Origin: Bacteroidota bacterium
Lineage (GTDB): Bacteria > Bacteroidota > Bacteroidia > UKL13-3
DNA length: 64,000 nucleotides
Reading direction: 5' to 3'
NCBI GenBank assembly: GCA_027488905.1
Contig: JAIYAT010000017.1
Coordinates: 124,001-188,000 of the forward strand
The notes under the pieces were generated by a model, which was given only the letters and a program-made list of their open reading frames with translations, ran no database searches and was not told the origin of the DNA. A program made the position numbers and the translations under genes. This document shows, one piece after another, positions 49,351 through 55,186 of the stretch (the first letter of the stretch is position 1; the number at the start of each line of letters is the position of its first letter).

Positions 49351-51384
49351 TTATTTTGCTCTTAACTGCTTCACTTTATTAATTAAAACCCCAATATCAT
49401 AGCTCACCCCAACATGTTGAGAAACAAACATATCTGGAAGTAAATTGGTTGTTCTTCTGTATGAATTGTTAATATTAGGAAACGAATTTTCCAAGGTAAT
49501 TTCACGATTTGCAACTTTATCATACCCCAATTCCTTATCTGGTGCACTTTCCAACCATTTTTGATAATTTCCACCATAGGTAAAGCCTTGCCCATAATCA
49601 TCTAAATAATCTGACATAGATAAACTAGCTTTAACTTCATACCTAAACCTGAAATTCTTATACAAATAGGCCAATTGAAATGAAGCATTAATATTCATCG
49701 TATAGCTATTATATTTCTTTTTATTGGGTAGGAAATTTTGTCCTTCTGTACCTAATGGCCTTAATTCAATGAAGGCCGCCTCACTTTTGTCTCTGCTATA
49801 AACAACATTTCTATAAGGGTCATATTTCATAAAGCTTGCTCCAAAACCAAATCCTGGAATAAATTTCCCTTTTATGTTTTTATCTAAAGAATGGCTATAG
49901 TTGTGTTTAGGGGCAAAGTAATAAATGGCTTCAAAATCTAAAATTTGCATTTTGGTTAAAAAATTCAATGCCCAAGATTGTTGCATTTCAATATTGCCAT
50001 TTTGATTTATAAAGGTCGGAGAACTTTGCCAAACCTGAAGCGGAGCAGTTGGGTCATGCATACCAATGTTTGTTCTATAATAAGCCATTCTATAAGACCA
50101 ACTTGGATTTCTGTTGTATTGTAAGAATAGGCCTCCCGACCATTCATAGGTTCCAGGAATGCCAAATTTATGTTTAATGTCACCAATATAAAATGCTAAA
50201 CCACCCCAAGCTCCAATTTCATAGGATGGAAATGTTTTTTTATCTTCTTTTATAATCAGCGAATCTGGTTTTTCTCTGTCTTCTAGGTATCGCTTTTTAT
50301 ACAAACTATCTAGGTTGGTTTCTGAAACAGAGGGAATATCTACTAAAAGACCATTATTCATTACCATGGTTTTGGCAATTCCGTCTGAATAATTAATGAA
50401 TAAAGAGTCCATTTTGAAGGCCTGGATAAAGGTTAACGAATTACCCATTGAGTCTAAAATCTTTGAAATAGCGCAGCTCTTTGAGCCTAATGCTAAAATG
50501 GTTTGTGAGGTATGCTTGATGTAATCTATATAGCAAAAGTCTTCAGGCCAATCTTTTAAATTTAAGTTTTCTGAGGTAAGTGATGGTAGTCTTGGGTCTG
50601 ATTGATAATCGAAAACGGGCCTTTCACTAGCTGTGCTATAGAGTCCTTTAGCATTAATTTCTGCTCTATCACCACTTAAAGATAATCCAATAGGAGTATT
50701 TCCAGCTTTATTTTCGTGGAAGGCTAAGTTACCCAATTTAAGGTTGTCTTGAGTATAAGGTTGACCAATGTTTAGATGAAGAATTCCTAAACTAGGATCG
50801 TTTCCATCTATTTTGTTTTGTTGAAACAAAAGGCTACTAAATTCATACTGAATCCCTTTAATACCAGCATTTTCAATGAGTATTCCAGATTGGTTATTGT
50901 AAAACTCACTATTTGTTAACTTAAATTGAATGGGTTCTAATTTTAAATCAATTAAAGGATTCGCAACAAAAATAACAGCTTCTTTAAAAGAAGAACCATG
51001 TATTTTTAACCTATCTAGAGTAACTTTTTTTCTAGACCAAAAAGGTTCAAAACTGATAGGTCTGGCAATGTTAGCAAACTCAGTATGTTTAATAACAATG
51101 TTAGAGGCAGGTGCATTACCATTAATTATTATTCCAATTCCAGGATTCTCTGGAAATAACGATTTAAATATAATTGGCTTGTTTTTCTCTCCTTCAAAAG
51201 ACAAACTTCCTTCAACCCAAAGCATAGCACCAGGTTTAAAAACTACTGTTGTACCAGCCGGAATGGTAAGCGTTTGGTTTTTATTTACTTTCTTAACTTT
51301 TTCAATTACCAAAGTATCCTGAGCAGAAACACTAAGATTTGTAAGGGTAATTAAAACTAATAATATGGTAAAAATTCTTTTCAT
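49351..51384 (-). CDS. Outer-membrane protein: beta-helix domain plus PorG/DUF6089-like barrel
   Basis: A signal peptide (residues 1-21, ending SVSAQ) is followed by about 300 residues of right-handed beta-helix-like repeats: GSLSFEGEKNKPIIFKS, IVIKHTEFAN and QLTNSEFYNN-type turns are visible. After a linker, residues about 390-677 form a beta-barrel whose IGAWGGLAFYIGDI, SWSYRMAYYRTNIG and SMSDYLDDYGQGF segments resemble the DUF6089 family. PorG, the outer-membrane component of type IX secretion, belongs to that family. It is the last gene of a five-gene operon with GldL- and two GldM-like genes and lies two bases after the second gldM-like gene. Inferred role: outer-membrane partner of that motor. 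Confidence 0.78.
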   Translation of the reverse strand: MKRIFTILLVLITLTNLSVSAQDTLVIEKVKKVNKNQTLTIPAGTTVVFKPGAMLWVEGSLSFEGEKNKPIIFKSLFPENPGIGIIINGNAPASNIVIKHTEFANIARPISFEPFWSRKKVTLDRLKIHGSSFKEAVIFVANPLIDLKLEPIQFKLTNSEFYNNQSGILIENAGIKGIQYEFSSLLFQQNKIDGNDPSLGILHLNIGQPYTQDNLKLGNLAFHENKAGNTPIGLSLSGDRAEINAKGLYSTASERPVFDYQSDPRLPSLTSENLNLKDWPEDFCYIDYIKHTSQTILALGSKSCAISKILDSMGNSLTFIQAFKMDSLFINYSDGIAKTMVMNNGLLVDIPSVSETNLDSLYKKRYLEDREKPDSLIIKEDKKTFPSYEIGAWGGLAFYIGDIKHKFGIPGTYEWSGGLFLQYNRNPSWSYRMAYYRTNIGMHDPTAPLQVWQSSPTFINQNGNIEMQQSWALNFLTKMQILDFEAIYYFAPKHNYSHSLDKNIKGKFIPGFGFGASFMKYDPYRNVVYSRDKSEAAFIELRPLGTEGQNFLPNKKKYNSYTMNINASFQLAYLYKNFRFRYEVKASLSMSDYLDDYGQGFTYGGNYQKWLESAPDKELGYDKVANREITLENSFPNINNSYRRTTNLLPDMFVSQHVGVSYDIGVLINKVKQLRAK

Positions 51385-51386
51385 AA

Positions 51387-52757
51387 CTAATTGATTTGAA
51401 TCACTAAAGTTTGATCCAGTTTTTTGGTTTCTTTTCCAATTCTAATTTGAATATCGTAAACTAAAATATAATTTAGACCTTCTATTTCTTTTTCAGTTAC
51501 TATTATTTTATCACCTGTTGAAGGGTAACTAGTATTTTCTGAACCAATTTTCTTAACATTAAAAGCTAATATTTGAAATGCATCATTCTCTTTAAAGGAA
51601 GGATGTTTTGCAGTTAAAATTAGTTCTTTAAGTTGAGATAATCTTTTTCTGCCAATTGTATTTGAGGGTAAACCTTGAACCAATACTTTTGGATCAGGTA
51701 ATGGTTTTACGAATACAGAGTCGAAGAAAATAGCATTTCCATTGCTAGATTTAATTTCAATGGCACACCATCCTTCTTTGTTAGGACTAAACGATAACAA
51801 ACCTATTTCTGAGTTTATTTTTGCGTTTTTATCAGTATTAGCAAAAACAACCATTCCTGGTTCTTTAAAAGGCAAAGTTTGAGTATAGTTTACTCCTTTA
51901 TAGCAAATTCTAAGTGGTAAAGATTGTTTTTTTGGAAAGCCAGCTGGTAGTACAGAAATTTCTAAATTTTCGGACTTTCTTTTCCCTTTCACATTAATTT
52001 TGTAATTCCCTGCATATTTTGGTTTGAAAACTAAACCATCTTTTAATTGAATAAACTCATCAACTGAATTTTCATCTCTTGTTACAATAACACTTTCTAG
52101 TTTATCCCCTTTAACATTTAATGTTGCCGAGTCACCAACGCGCATGCTAGTGTATTTTGTCATTAAACTAAGAGAAGGTTCTGTTTTAATATCCTCTGGC
52201 ACTTTTCCTTGTTGCGCCATTAATAAAATCCTCACCCTTAGCTCTTCCATAAGGGTTAAGGCTAATTCGGCAGGTACGTGTTTAAACTTGTTTTTTACCC
52301 ATCCCTCTGCATTTTCTTCTTGAAGACCAATTTTTAAATCATAACTAAATAGGGTATTAAATAGCTTATTGGTTCTGTTATTTTCAGGGAAAGAAAGTGC
52401 CCACTTCTTTAATTTAATTAGTTCAGCAAATATGATTCTACCATTCTCTTGATTAATAAAAAAATCATCTGTAATAACATATGCTTTCAACTCCTGCTTT
52501 TTTTTACTAGCTTGGTTCATACCAAGAGCCTCCTTAAAGGAGTTAGTAACTACGATTATATTGGTATTTATAGTATTTAGAGTTGGTTCCTCCAAGTTGG
52601 CCTTCGCTCGATTTAAATAAGTATGCATGGGTTGCGTAACCACTAACCAAGAGGTTGGGATTTGCATTACAGCAAGTACAAAAAATATGATGTACATCAT
52701 GCTGATAAGCTTGAATCGCAAATTTTTACTATGTGTTATCCTTTCAAATTGAGCCAT
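51387..52757 (-). CDS. GldM/PorM-like motor protein, copy 2
   Basis: One N-terminal transmembrane helix (about 17-38) leads into a long periplasmic region. MRVGDSATLNV near 209, LRICYKGVNYTQ near 281, the VKPLPDPKV segment near 355 and FQILAFNVKK near 398 match GldM D2 to D4 landmarks. GldM pairs with GldL to form the rotor/stator motor of type IX secretion and gliding, crossing the periplasm. At 456 residues it is shorter than canonical GldM (about 515). It overlaps copy 1 by one base, and the two are only distantly similar, so a heterodimer is plausible. Confidence 0.82.
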   Translation of the reverse strand: MAQFERITHSKNLRFKLISMMYIIFFVLAVMQIPTSWLVVTQPMHTYLNRAKANLEEPTLNTINTNIIVVTNSFKEALGMNQASKKKQELKAYVITDDFFINQENGRIIFAELIKLKKWALSFPENNRTNKLFNTLFSYDLKIGLQEENAEGWVKNKFKHVPAELALTLMEELRVRILLMAQQGKVPEDIKTEPSLSLMTKYTSMRVGDSATLNVKGDKLESVIVTRDENSVDEFIQLKDGLVFKPKYAGNYKINVKGKRKSENLEISVLPAGFPKKQSLPLRICYKGVNYTQTLPFKEPGMVVFANTDKNAKINSEIGLLSFSPNKEGWCAIEIKSSNGNAIFFDSVFVKPLPDPKVLVQGLPSNTIGRKRLSQLKELILTAKHPSFKENDAFQILAFNVKKIGSENTSYPSTGDKIIVTEKEIEGLNYILVYDIQIRIGKETKKLDQTLVIQIN

Positions 52758-54157
52758 TATTTATTTATAAAAATAGGAGTTCCCATAATTGTGCTTACGC
52801 CATTCTTATTGATTAACCTAATATGATGAAAAAGCAATGTACTGCCGGCAGGGGCTGTTCTTTCTAATGTTCTTAATTCATTTCTCAAGAAACGGGTATT
52901 GCTAGCCAATTCTACTTTTCGCCCATTAGGATAGCATAATGTCATATTAAAATTGAGTACTTGCCAATTTGGGTTTGTACTTTCTAAACAGTGGGCTGTT
53001 TTTAATTGGGTTTCACGTCCTGCGATATCTTTAGGTGCAACTCTTGGTGGATTTCCTTTAAGTGCATACACCGATTTTTTGTCTAATAAAATTTCCCCAG
53101 AAAGCATGTCAATTTCAAACCTTCCTTCGAACTCAGGTGTAATTGTTAACACATTTCCATTACGTTGAACTTTAGCCCCTTTAGAAATAAACTTAAGGTC
53201 TTTTATTTTTTCAAGTCCATTTAAATCCAATGTTAAAAATAATGGCTCGCTTAAATAGGCTGCAATCTCTTGTTCTGTTTCAAGAAACCTTAACGCAGGT
53301 TTTACGACGCTTAACAAATGAGTTATTCCTTCCTCGTCCACTGCGGCTTTTAATTCATAATCACCAGGTAAACTTGGATTCCAATAAACCAGAAAATGAC
53401 GACCATTTACAATAGGTTTAATTCGTTCATTATTTATTGTAATAATCGGTTCAATTGAATCTCTCGAAAAAAAGTCGAATACAACTTCTTCTCCAACATA
53501 ATAATTGCTTTTATATCCTTGAAGCAGGGCCGAATCGGAAGCAGTAGACACATTTACCAATTTTGCATTCAACATTTCTTTTTTGAAATATTGTAAGGTT
53601 TGTGTTAGTACTACTAGTTTAAGGTGCGCGATTATTGCTCCTACTGTTCCATTTGGAGCCTCTTTTAAAAATCTATTTGGAAATTTTACCGCTCCTATTC
53701 TTTCCTCATTGGTAATACCTAAATCTATATTCAGTTTGGGTTTATAACTTTCAGGGAATGCTGAAATAAATAATATTAACTTTTCATTTATGGCGTTTCC
53801 AATTTTATCTCTAGTAATATAATGCTTAGTATATTTTTGCTCTTTTAGCCATGAGTTTCTTTCTGTCTTTCCTTCACTAAATTTTAAATAATGAATTTCT
53901 AAACTGTCTAAAAAGTTTAGTGTTTCAATTGATTTTGTTTTTAAATTAAAATCTTGTTGCTGAATAGGTTCTACCGCATCTAGCCTTTCTCTTAATTGAG
54001 TATTTAGTGTCCTTTGAGTTTTTGATAAGGGTTGAAAATGCACCACGAATTCCCCTGGAGAGGATTGAAAAAAGAAAATAAAAAAAATCAAATACAAAAA
54101 GGCAAGCCTTTTGAAATTTAATGCTTTTGATTTTGAAATTGTAATTGTTCTGGCCAT
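52757..54157 (-). CDS. GldM/PorM-like motor protein, copy 1
   Basis: A basic N-terminus and one hydrophobic helix (about 17-35) are followed by about 430 periplasmic residues. YYVGEEVVFDFF near 220 matches the GldM D2 strand, and the C-terminal NWQVLNFNMTLCYPNG segment with its LLFHHIRLINKNG repeat resembles GldM D4. It is the less conserved of the two GldM-like proteins; identification rests on topology, length and position directly after GldL. Five bases separate it from the gldL-like gene. Presumed role: periplasmic shaft of the motor. Confidence 0.75.
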   Translation of the reverse strand: MARTITISKSKALNFKRLAFLYLIFFIFFFQSSPGEFVVHFQPLSKTQRTLNTQLRERLDAVEPIQQQDFNLKTKSIETLNFLDSLEIHYLKFSEGKTERNSWLKEQKYTKHYITRDKIGNAINEKLILFISAFPESYKPKLNIDLGITNEERIGAVKFPNRFLKEAPNGTVGAIIAHLKLVVLTQTLQYFKKEMLNAKLVNVSTASDSALLQGYKSNYYVGEEVVFDFFSRDSIEPIITINNERIKPIVNGRHFLVYWNPSLPGDYELKAAVDEEGITHLLSVVKPALRFLETEQEIAAYLSEPLFLTLDLNGLEKIKDLKFISKGAKVQRNGNVLTITPEFEGRFEIDMLSGEILLDKKSVYALKGNPPRVAPKDIAGRETQLKTAHCLESTNPNWQVLNFNMTLCYPNGRKVELASNTRFLRNELRTLERTAPAGSTLLFHHIRLINKNGVSTIMGTPIFINK

Positions 54158-54162
54158 AGCCC

Positions 54163-54654
54163 TTATTTAGCTCCGGATAAGAAATCTCTGTATTTGGAAT
54201 TTATCTTTTCCATATGCTCATTATGCTCTCCAATTTGCTTGTTAAATCCTTGCATTTTTTCATGCATTTCCTTACTTGCACTTGCATTTTGAGCCATTTC
54301 TTCTTTAATACTACCTATAGCTTTATTTAAGCCAGAAATTTGCTCTGATAGTTCATTTAATGTTGAACCAAACTGATTCATAGCAGTATTGTAATGCGCA
54401 ATATCTGCTTTATCTTCCCCTTCTTTAGCTAGCTGAGGAAAAACTCTTTCCCACTCGTATTCGGTATCCTCATGAGTTCTTTCAAACGCTGATACTAAAA
54501 AAACAAGAACTTCTATAGATAAACCTGCAATGAATAATTCATTGGCAAAGTCCCAATCCACAAACTTGAACATGGATCCAACTAAAACTACAGCCGCACC
54601 AAAGCCGTAAAAGAAGGTAATTAAATTTAGTTTTCCTTTAGATTTATTAGCCAT
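54163..54654 (-). CDS. GldL/PorL-like inner-membrane motor protein
   Basis: The first 75 residues match GldL closely: two transmembrane helices (about 11-29 and 38-57), the FYGFGAAVVLVGSMFK segment, Glu48 within GLSIEVLVF in helix 2, and YEWERVFPQL at 66-75. In GldL the helix-2 Glu is the proton-carrying residue of the motor. Lys30 is kept, while the position three residues later is Asp rather than the His I recall from F. johnsoniae GldL. The C-terminal 70 residues are a cytoplasmic coiled coil. At 163 residues it is shorter than GldL (about 215). No gldK or gldN is adjacent. Confidence 0.9.
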   Translation of the reverse strand: MANKSKGKLNLITFFYGFGAAVVLVGSMFKFVDWDFANELFIAGLSIEVLVFLVSAFERTHEDTEYEWERVFPQLAKEGEDKADIAHYNTAMNQFGSTLNELSEQISGLNKAIGSIKEEMAQNASASKEMHEKMQGFNKQIGEHNEHMEKINSKYRDFLSGAK

Positions 54655-54658
54655 TTGA

Positions 54659-55186
54659 TTAATTATTACGCTTAATTATATATTCATTAAATTTGTCCCA
54701 AGTTGATTGGTACTTTTCTATTGTTTGATTATTACTTATTCGAATTCCAAAAAACACACCAGCCGCCGCTAGCAGCAACAATACTAAATAAATAATCAAT
54801 TGTTGGTTCCATTGTTTTTCCAAAGTAGCCTTAACACCTTCCATGGTTCTATTCTGCTCCTCAAATTTCTTTTGAAAACCATCTAAAGCTAAATTAACTG
54901 CACGCTCGTTTTGCGCTTGAACTTCAAAATTTCTGTTTACATCTGCTTTTGTTTCAATATTAACTTTATTTAAACTGTCAATAGAAAGTATAAGAAGTTG
55001 AGAAATTTCGGTTAGCTTATTTTCAAGGTCATTTATTTTTTTATTTGCCTCAAATAAATTGGATTTTGAACGCTTTAATTCGCGCTTTAATGTTTGAATT
55101 TCCTGATTCATTGGGTTTTCAGTCATCGACTGACCATTTCCGATGATAGGAATTACTATGCAAAATAGTATAAATAGTTTTTTCAT
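54659..55186 (-). CDS. Secreted coiled-coil protein with C-terminal TM helix, unknown function
   Basis: An N-terminal signal-like segment (1-19, ending GNGQ) is followed by coiled coil (about 28-125), one hydrophobic helix at 129-148 and a 27-residue basic/polar tail. If the signal peptide is cleaved, the coiled coil would lie in the periplasm and the tail in the cytoplasm. I do not recognise a family. It is the first gene of the GldL/GldM-like operon, four bases before gldL, so it is likely an accessory or regulatory subunit of that motor. Confidence 0.7.
   Translation of the reverse strand: MKKLFILFCIVIPIIGNGQSMTENPMNQEIQTLKRELKRSKSNLFEANKKINDLENKLTEISQLLILSIDSLNKVNIETKADVNRNFEVQAQNERAVNLALDGFQKKFEEQNRTMEGVKATLEKQWNQQLIIYLVLLLLAAAGVFFGIRISNNQTIEKYQSTWDKFNEYIIKRNN

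Follow-up and report, generated by a model that had tools for sequence, protein, structure and literature searches.

The window analyzed here, a stretch of 64,000 nucleotides from contig JAIYAT010000017.1 of a Bacteroidota bacterium (lineage UKL13-3, assembly GCA_027488905.1), holds an operon related to GldLM, the motor of the type IX secretion system (T9SS). It consists of five co-directional open reading frames (ORFs) on the minus strand, for which we coined the labels CC, L2, MA, MB and OM in the present analysis (Table 1), with spacings of 4, 5, -1 and 2 bases and the genes of MA and MB overlapping by one base. A first-pass annotation had described a five-gene minus-strand operon with a one-base overlap to five-base gaps, congruent with the ORF coordinates, and had listed a protein with signal peptide, coiled coil and transmembrane (TM) segment among its products. 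Hydropathy places a signal-peptide-like segment at residues 4-22 of CC and a single TM segment at about 130-148 (a 15-row alignment was also made). The remaining genes encode a GldL homologue (L2), two different members of the GldM family (MA and MB) and a protein ending in a barrel of PorG type (OM), and the operon is on balance read as a second motor dedicated to its own outer-membrane partner.

Table 1. Genes of the five-gene operon, with positions in the window.
Label	Position	Strand	Description
CC	54659-55186	-	175 aa; signal-peptide-like N-terminus, coiled-coil-like region, one TM, short C-terminal tail
L2	54163-54654	-	163 aa; short GldL homologue; two TM helices, C-terminal coiled-coil-like region
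MA	52757-54157	-	466 aa; first GldM-family protein; N14 = Arg9 position, E36 = Glu31 position
MB	51387-52757	-	456 aa; second GldM-family protein; R14 = Arg9 position, S36 = Glu31 position
OM	49351-51384	-	677 aa; signal peptide, N-terminal region ~23-300 (beta-helix by eye), linker, barrel ~386-677

L2 is a GldL homologue. The protein matches the GldL_N domain PF22827 over cut-off (E 2.1e-23) and TIGR03513 at E 6.1e-27, with 95 bits for a cut-off of 68 bits, and reaches the GldL chain 7sau in the PDB at E 1.1e-17. Glu48, singled out in the first-pass annotation as the mark of a clear GldL homologue, is the equivalent of GldL Glu49 in TM helix 2, and Glu58 is that of Glu59. According to PMC8986121, GldL E49 is required for motor function; its equivalent is present in all 16 L2 proteins of the five-gene form, in all seven GldL proteins of a three-gene form found in other families (see below) and in 29 of 29 canonical GldL. 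The Glu59 equivalent is kept in 16/16 L2 and in 2/7 three-gene GldL.

MA and MB belong to the GldM family, as judged from profile-profile comparison with controls and from structure searches. Using hhalign against a profile of 31 GldM proteins, MA scored 95.6% (E 1.3e-8) and MB 96.6% (E 5.2e-10) over 422-424 columns, nearly end to end, while an earlier comparison against 25 GldM gave 94.8% and 96.4%, respectively. MA and MB score 98.4% against one another, and 98.8% and 99.2%, respectively, against the seven three-gene GldM. Reversed profiles yielded 0.1% (MA) and 0.2% (MB), 30 column shuffles of each peaked at 0.8% for MA and 1.1% for MB, and comparisons involving the OM, CC or L2 profiles remained at 0.1-0.6%. 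AlphaFold2 models of the single chains (mean predicted local distance difference test score, pLDDT, 76.5 and predicted template-modeling score, pTM, 0.46 for MA; 78.6 and 0.44 for MB) were then compared with 350,542 PDB chains, the best structural matches of both being the GldM/PorM periplasmic structures 6ey4 and 7cmg. With VIA-align, PorM 7cmg was recovered by MB at Z 11.7 (root-mean-square deviation, rmsd, 31.7; 342 residues aligned) and by MA at Z 13.3 (rmsd 32.7; 376 aligned), and the C-terminal domains 6ey6 at Z 9.9 (rmsd 4.8; 175 aligned) and Z 11.8 (rmsd 3.6; 173 aligned), respectively, PorM/GldM chains filling the top four rows for each. An alignment termed A7 also gave strong GldM/PorM matches among PDB sequences; it includes the canonical GldM of the genome and is thus not independent. 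The profile-profile and structure searches, by placing both reading frames in the family, uphold the proposal of two different GldM-like proteins, and on the same grounds the idea that MA or MB are periplasmic proteins unrelated to GldM was rejected.

The axle pair is asymmetric at the position of GldM Arg9, a residue at the cytoplasmic end of the TM helix, for which the conserved Tyr of that helix served as the reference point. Arginine is found there in 31/31 canonical GldM (canonical meaning GldM over cut-off), in 7/7 three-gene GldM and in 15/15 MB, and in 0/17 MA, which carry Asn (13), Ser (3) or Thr (1), although many of these rows are close relatives and the counts overstate the number of independent lineages. 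According to the view given in a 2025 study (PMC12239597), Arg9 of only a single GldM chain is believed to be paired with GldL Glu49 at any moment, and the Arg9-Glu49 ion pair is implicated in proton transport. The two proteins are conserved to a similar extent, with a mean column identity by domain of 0.50-0.79 for MA and 0.53-0.78 for MB, and they co-occur in every locus that is not cut between them.

The operon comes in addition to a canonical motor. GldL, GldM (over cut-off) and the only GldN match of the genome are all located on another contig (C32), adjoined by gldK-like and porP-like genes that were recognized by eye. This agrees with the first-pass view of a second motor, which the lack of a canonical gldLM elsewhere would have refuted, and the reading of the operon as the sole T9SS motor of the cell was rejected on these grounds. 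MA was detected in 16 of 60 relatives searched (source genome included), each of them with a GldM over cut-off (16/16); the same applies to nine further genomes with a stand-alone motor (seven with the three-gene form, G257 and G393), for which GldM exceeded the curated cut-off in 9/9, giving 25/25 overall.

The operon had been proposed to lack GldK and GldN. We ran phmmer with both proteins of the source genome, GldK being taken from the gldK-like gene on C32, and obtained 0 matches at E 0.001 in 20 five-gene loci (including the window and the overlapping L005) and likewise 0 in 8 loci of three-gene type; no additional GldK was sought in the rest of the genome. In the positive control, the probes recovered GldK in 28/31 and GldN in 29/31 canonical loci. 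The proposed lack of both genes is upheld for the operon and is seen in all 28 stand-alone loci.

The C-terminal barrel of OM is of PorG/DUF6089 type by sequence comparison, in line with the barrel that had been assigned to the last gene. The window protein itself matches the PorG model NF052316 at E 7.2e-9 (35.7 bits, below the cut-off of 130 bits) and DUF6089 at E 0.0026 (below cut-off). A profile built from five-gene OM only matches a PorG-type protein of the source genome across positions 387-666, that is, the whole barrel, at E 5.7e-12, and relatives from the three-gene form exceed the DUF6089 cut-off in two of three cases tested (E 1.6e-18 and 3e-19). The OM profile gave no match among PDB sequences up to E 0.1. 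PorG is bonded to GldK via cysteines of its C-terminal tail, according to PMC12635249. Such a C-tail cysteine is present in 0/14 five-gene OM with a complete C-terminus (L026, which is cut, was excluded) and in 0/6 intact barrel-bearing OM proteins of three-gene type. It is found in 2/2 of the best PorG matches of the source genome, at 138.8 bits (over cut-off) and 116.8 bits (below), a comparison covering these two and leaving out four weaker matches besides the OM of the window. The missing C-tail cysteine, together with loci without gldK and gldN, argues that the motor would reach OM without a GldK bond.

Two further features of these barrel proteins were observed. Cys284 and Cys304 of OM flank the start of the linker, with cysteines at matching places in 11/13 five-gene OM (absent in L034 and L036). 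The source genome moreover carries two PorG-type genes side by side (G000:C2:17469-19097), both with the C-tail cysteine, and neighboring PorG-type matches occur in several other genomes of the class sample.

The five-gene unit is conserved as such. The other MA-bearing genomes, 15 in number, supplied 16 loci, as one of them has the operon on two contigs. Of these loci, 11 contain all five genes in order, the last gene being cut by a contig end in one of them; the remaining five loci are cut by contig ends, and no other gene order was found in any. G393 (L136), from a third genus of the family, also has all five. The five-gene order is conserved, and in total 12 genomes of the family besides the source genome have all five genes together, with four more cut by contig ends. 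Of the 19 genomes of the genus, 14 were recovered as operon carriers by the MA search, and in G014 a contig end holds MB and OM; a scan of genome contigs gave at least eight loci. The true neighbor genes of the window operon are shared with the two nearest genomes only (17 loci, ORFs of at least 90 aa), while one ORF antisense to OM also matched two others in the flank comparison. Between the window and L024, synonymous sites are saturated in four of the five genes; nonsynonymous divergence (dN) is 0.067-0.172, and the ratio of nonsynonymous to synonymous divergence (dN/dS) for MB is 0.086.

Outside the source family, a shorter form exists. In the class sample, the MA query matched 11 of 395 genomes, at full length in six (all of the source family) and weakly and partially in five, and the MB query 10 of 395, namely six full-length matches and one partial (all of the source family) and three weak partial matches that led to three-gene loci. 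The OM profile at E 1e-8 has some match in 364/395 genomes, the barrel half matching PorG-type proteins widely, while in a phylum sample of 395 genomes at E 1e-45 six were recovered, the source genome and five by the PorG barrel alone. Matches that include the N-terminal half of OM occur in at least 15/395 genomes, seven of the source family and eight others, in a survey that scored at most three candidates per genome and in which three of the eight outside genomes had contributed to the profile. Seven of these eight, from four other families, have a GldL-GldM-OM tandem (L138, L139, L140, L179, L180, L181 and L182); the locus of the eighth (G257), with its OM gene, is cut by a contig end, and a GldM-like frame lies on another contig. 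When five of the three-gene GldM were compared with TIGR03517, every one gave a match (E 1e-24 to 1e-37), though under the cut-off of 180 bits. CC was seen in the five-gene form only, with no match to the CC profile at E 0.01 in the seven three-gene loci.

Phylogenetic trees set the stand-alone proteins apart from the canonical ones. In the GldL tree (52 rows), stand-alone GldL of both forms is split from 29 canonical sequences by a branch with 100/100 support; the 16 five-gene rows form a clade (100/99), to which five of the seven three-gene rows are joined at 86/83. A GldM tree was built from 47 rows, after leaving out 4/17 MA, 3/15 MB and 16/31 canonical sequences; in it, MA, MB, three-gene and canonical GldM each form one clade, and MA and MB stand together against the rest at 98/91. 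Two separate acquisitions of MA and MB were consequently rejected, as the tree joins them, long branches being flagged. With the canonical proteins as outgroup, it appears that one GldM duplicated before the three genera of the family parted, and we infer that the two-GldM form probably derives from the three-gene form with its single GldM.

Considering these data together, we regard it as somewhat probable that the operon encodes a dedicated second 5:2 proton-driven motor of the GldLM family, acting beside the canonical T9SS motor, with an MA:MB axle that pushes its own OM. Five copies of L2 would form the inner-membrane ring, judging from its homology to GldL, around an axle most likely composed of one MA and one MB. 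If so, there is a single engaging arginine in the motor. Because MB holds the only Arg9 equivalent, published GldLM models would translate into five arginine-glutamate engagements of about 72 degrees per turn, compared with ten of about 36. The periplasmic arms of MA and MB would then push the periplasmic part of OM directly, without GldK, GldN or the PorG-GldK disulfide. CC may speculatively hold the L2 ring in place; according to a review (PMC9389320), the anchor of GldL has not been identified. As for what the motor does, an energized event at the outer membrane is the likeliest class, for example the transport or release of a surface component. The full version of this mechanism, comprising an obligate heterodimeric axle with the arginine on one subunit, 72-degree strokes, half the protons per turn and direct coupling to OM without an intermediate ring, is put forward tentatively, as a possibility rather than an expectation.

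Several points count against a dedicated motor with an MA:MB axle. Searched as single sequences, MA and MB had no credible match in Pfam or NCBIfam and reached no GldM model (Pfam GldM domains, TIGR03517) up to E 1, and we therefore class them as GldM homologues rather than equivalog GldM. Unrelated immunoglobulin-like chains follow close behind in VIA-align (Z 8.6 for MB and 9.6 for MA), so that the structural case depends on the match of the whole arm. The second asymmetric position, that of Glu31, offers little help: it is acidic in 14/17 MA and still in 5/15 MB, and loss of GldM Glu31 is without phenotype in Flavobacterium johnsoniae (PMC8986121). The Glu31 position was accordingly given no weight, and the idea that MA and MB had each cleanly lost one of the two residues, Arg9 and Glu31, was rejected, the pattern being clean for Arg9 and incomplete for Glu31. 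The OM protein of L138 (449 aa) is matched by the profile in its N-terminal part only, with no barrel match, and the barrel may hence be dispensable there. Both trees carry long-branch warnings, and the three-gene rows form one clade in the GldM tree, not in the GldL tree. Finally, MA might form homodimers instead, and the stand-alone motor might use the canonical GldKN ring of the same cell.

The latter leads to an alternative that we judge unlikely, namely that the operon is an auxiliary or alternative motor of ordinary T9SS or gliding, in which MA and MB push a shared GldKN track, while OM would be a variant of PorG that cooperates with the canonical translocon. It fits the GldM over cut-off in every stand-alone-motor genome checked, the PorG-type barrel of OM and a single GldN that could serve both motors. 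However, OM proteins lack the tail cysteine that PorG uses for its bond to GldK and possess an N-terminal domain that PorG does not have, the 28 stand-alone loci are free of gldK and gldN matches, and stand-alone GldL is a separate clade. Just as improbable in our view are two homodimeric motors sharing one type of L2 ring, where MB2 is active and MA2 is inactive, regulatory or idling. An MA2 axle would indeed be without the ion pairs of current models, given the absence of Arg9 throughout MA, and the one-base overlap of the two genes also speaks for it, yet MA is conserved like MB, and either protein occurs alone only at contig ends; from a dispensable regulator, one would expect less. We consider it very improbable that the complex senses protons or the envelope by means of reused GldL and GldM domains without generating force. 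MA and MB align with nearly the full length of GldM, the Glu49 equivalent does not vary, and the last gene encodes a barrel of the outer membrane instead of a cytoplasmic output domain. On the other side, a fusion of GldM_1st to a SpoIIE phosphatase in another genome (L147) indicates that such modules can serve signaling.

Compared with canonical GldLM/PorLM, the dedicated motor that we favor shares a GldL-type ring protein with a Glu49 equivalent and GldM-type arms that align with GldM nearly end to end. It differs in having no adjoining gldK or gldN, two GldM-type proteins per operon, a short GldL that belongs to a separate clade, and its own PorG-like OM with an N-terminal domain. OM, in turn, has the C-terminal barrel family in common with PorG, but differs by an extra N-terminal domain of about 300 residues with a linker and by the absence of a C-tail cysteine. 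As a precedent, the Myxococcus gliding machinery AglR/AglQ/AglS comes closest, since it likewise combines one ring protein with two different axle proteins, AglQ and AglS. Its components are of MotA/MotB type, not GldL/GldM, and the conserved TM aspartate is present in both AglQ and AglS, in contrast to the loss of Arg9 from one axle protein here; whether AglQ and AglS form a heterodimer is stated as unknown (PMC9389320 for both points). None of the titles and abstracts listed in searches of the open-access PMC literature describes a stand-alone or second GldLM motor, or two GldM per motor.

The rotation of 5:2 motors is not yet settled, and in the GldLM models consulted the axle consists of two identical chains. 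In the present operon, evolution has apparently produced an axle pair in which one chain alone bears the key arginine, an arrangement conserved across three genera, and such an axle would allow tests of the step size, of the number of protons and of whether two arginines are needed. Moreover, the three-gene form points to a minimal GldLM machine whose reach to the outer membrane does not depend on the GldKN ring, and which could show the assembly history of the larger T9SS.

Other arrangements of GldL and GldM modules were also encountered. L147:7746-9899 (+) encodes a protein of 717 aa with a weak GldL_N match (below cut-off), GldM_1st and a C-terminal SpoIIE phosphatase, in which GldM domain 1 appears sensor-like. 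Apparent GldL-GldM fusions of 350-425 aa, with the rest of the arm absent, are present at L141:8755-10032, L143:5683-6933 and L146:8587-9639 (all -), each combining a partial GldL_N (E 7e-10 to 6e-11) with GldM_1st (E 4e-13 to 6.5e-27). Among the three-gene loci, the OM gene of L181 (L181:6991-9196) is distributed over two overlapping frames, reflecting a broken gene or a sequencing error. Downstream of the three-gene operon of L138 (L138:11349-18001) are three long ORFs that resemble one another at the N-terminus and look TPR-like by eye; the first has PD40 and OmpA domains, a composition that we take to be PorE-like.

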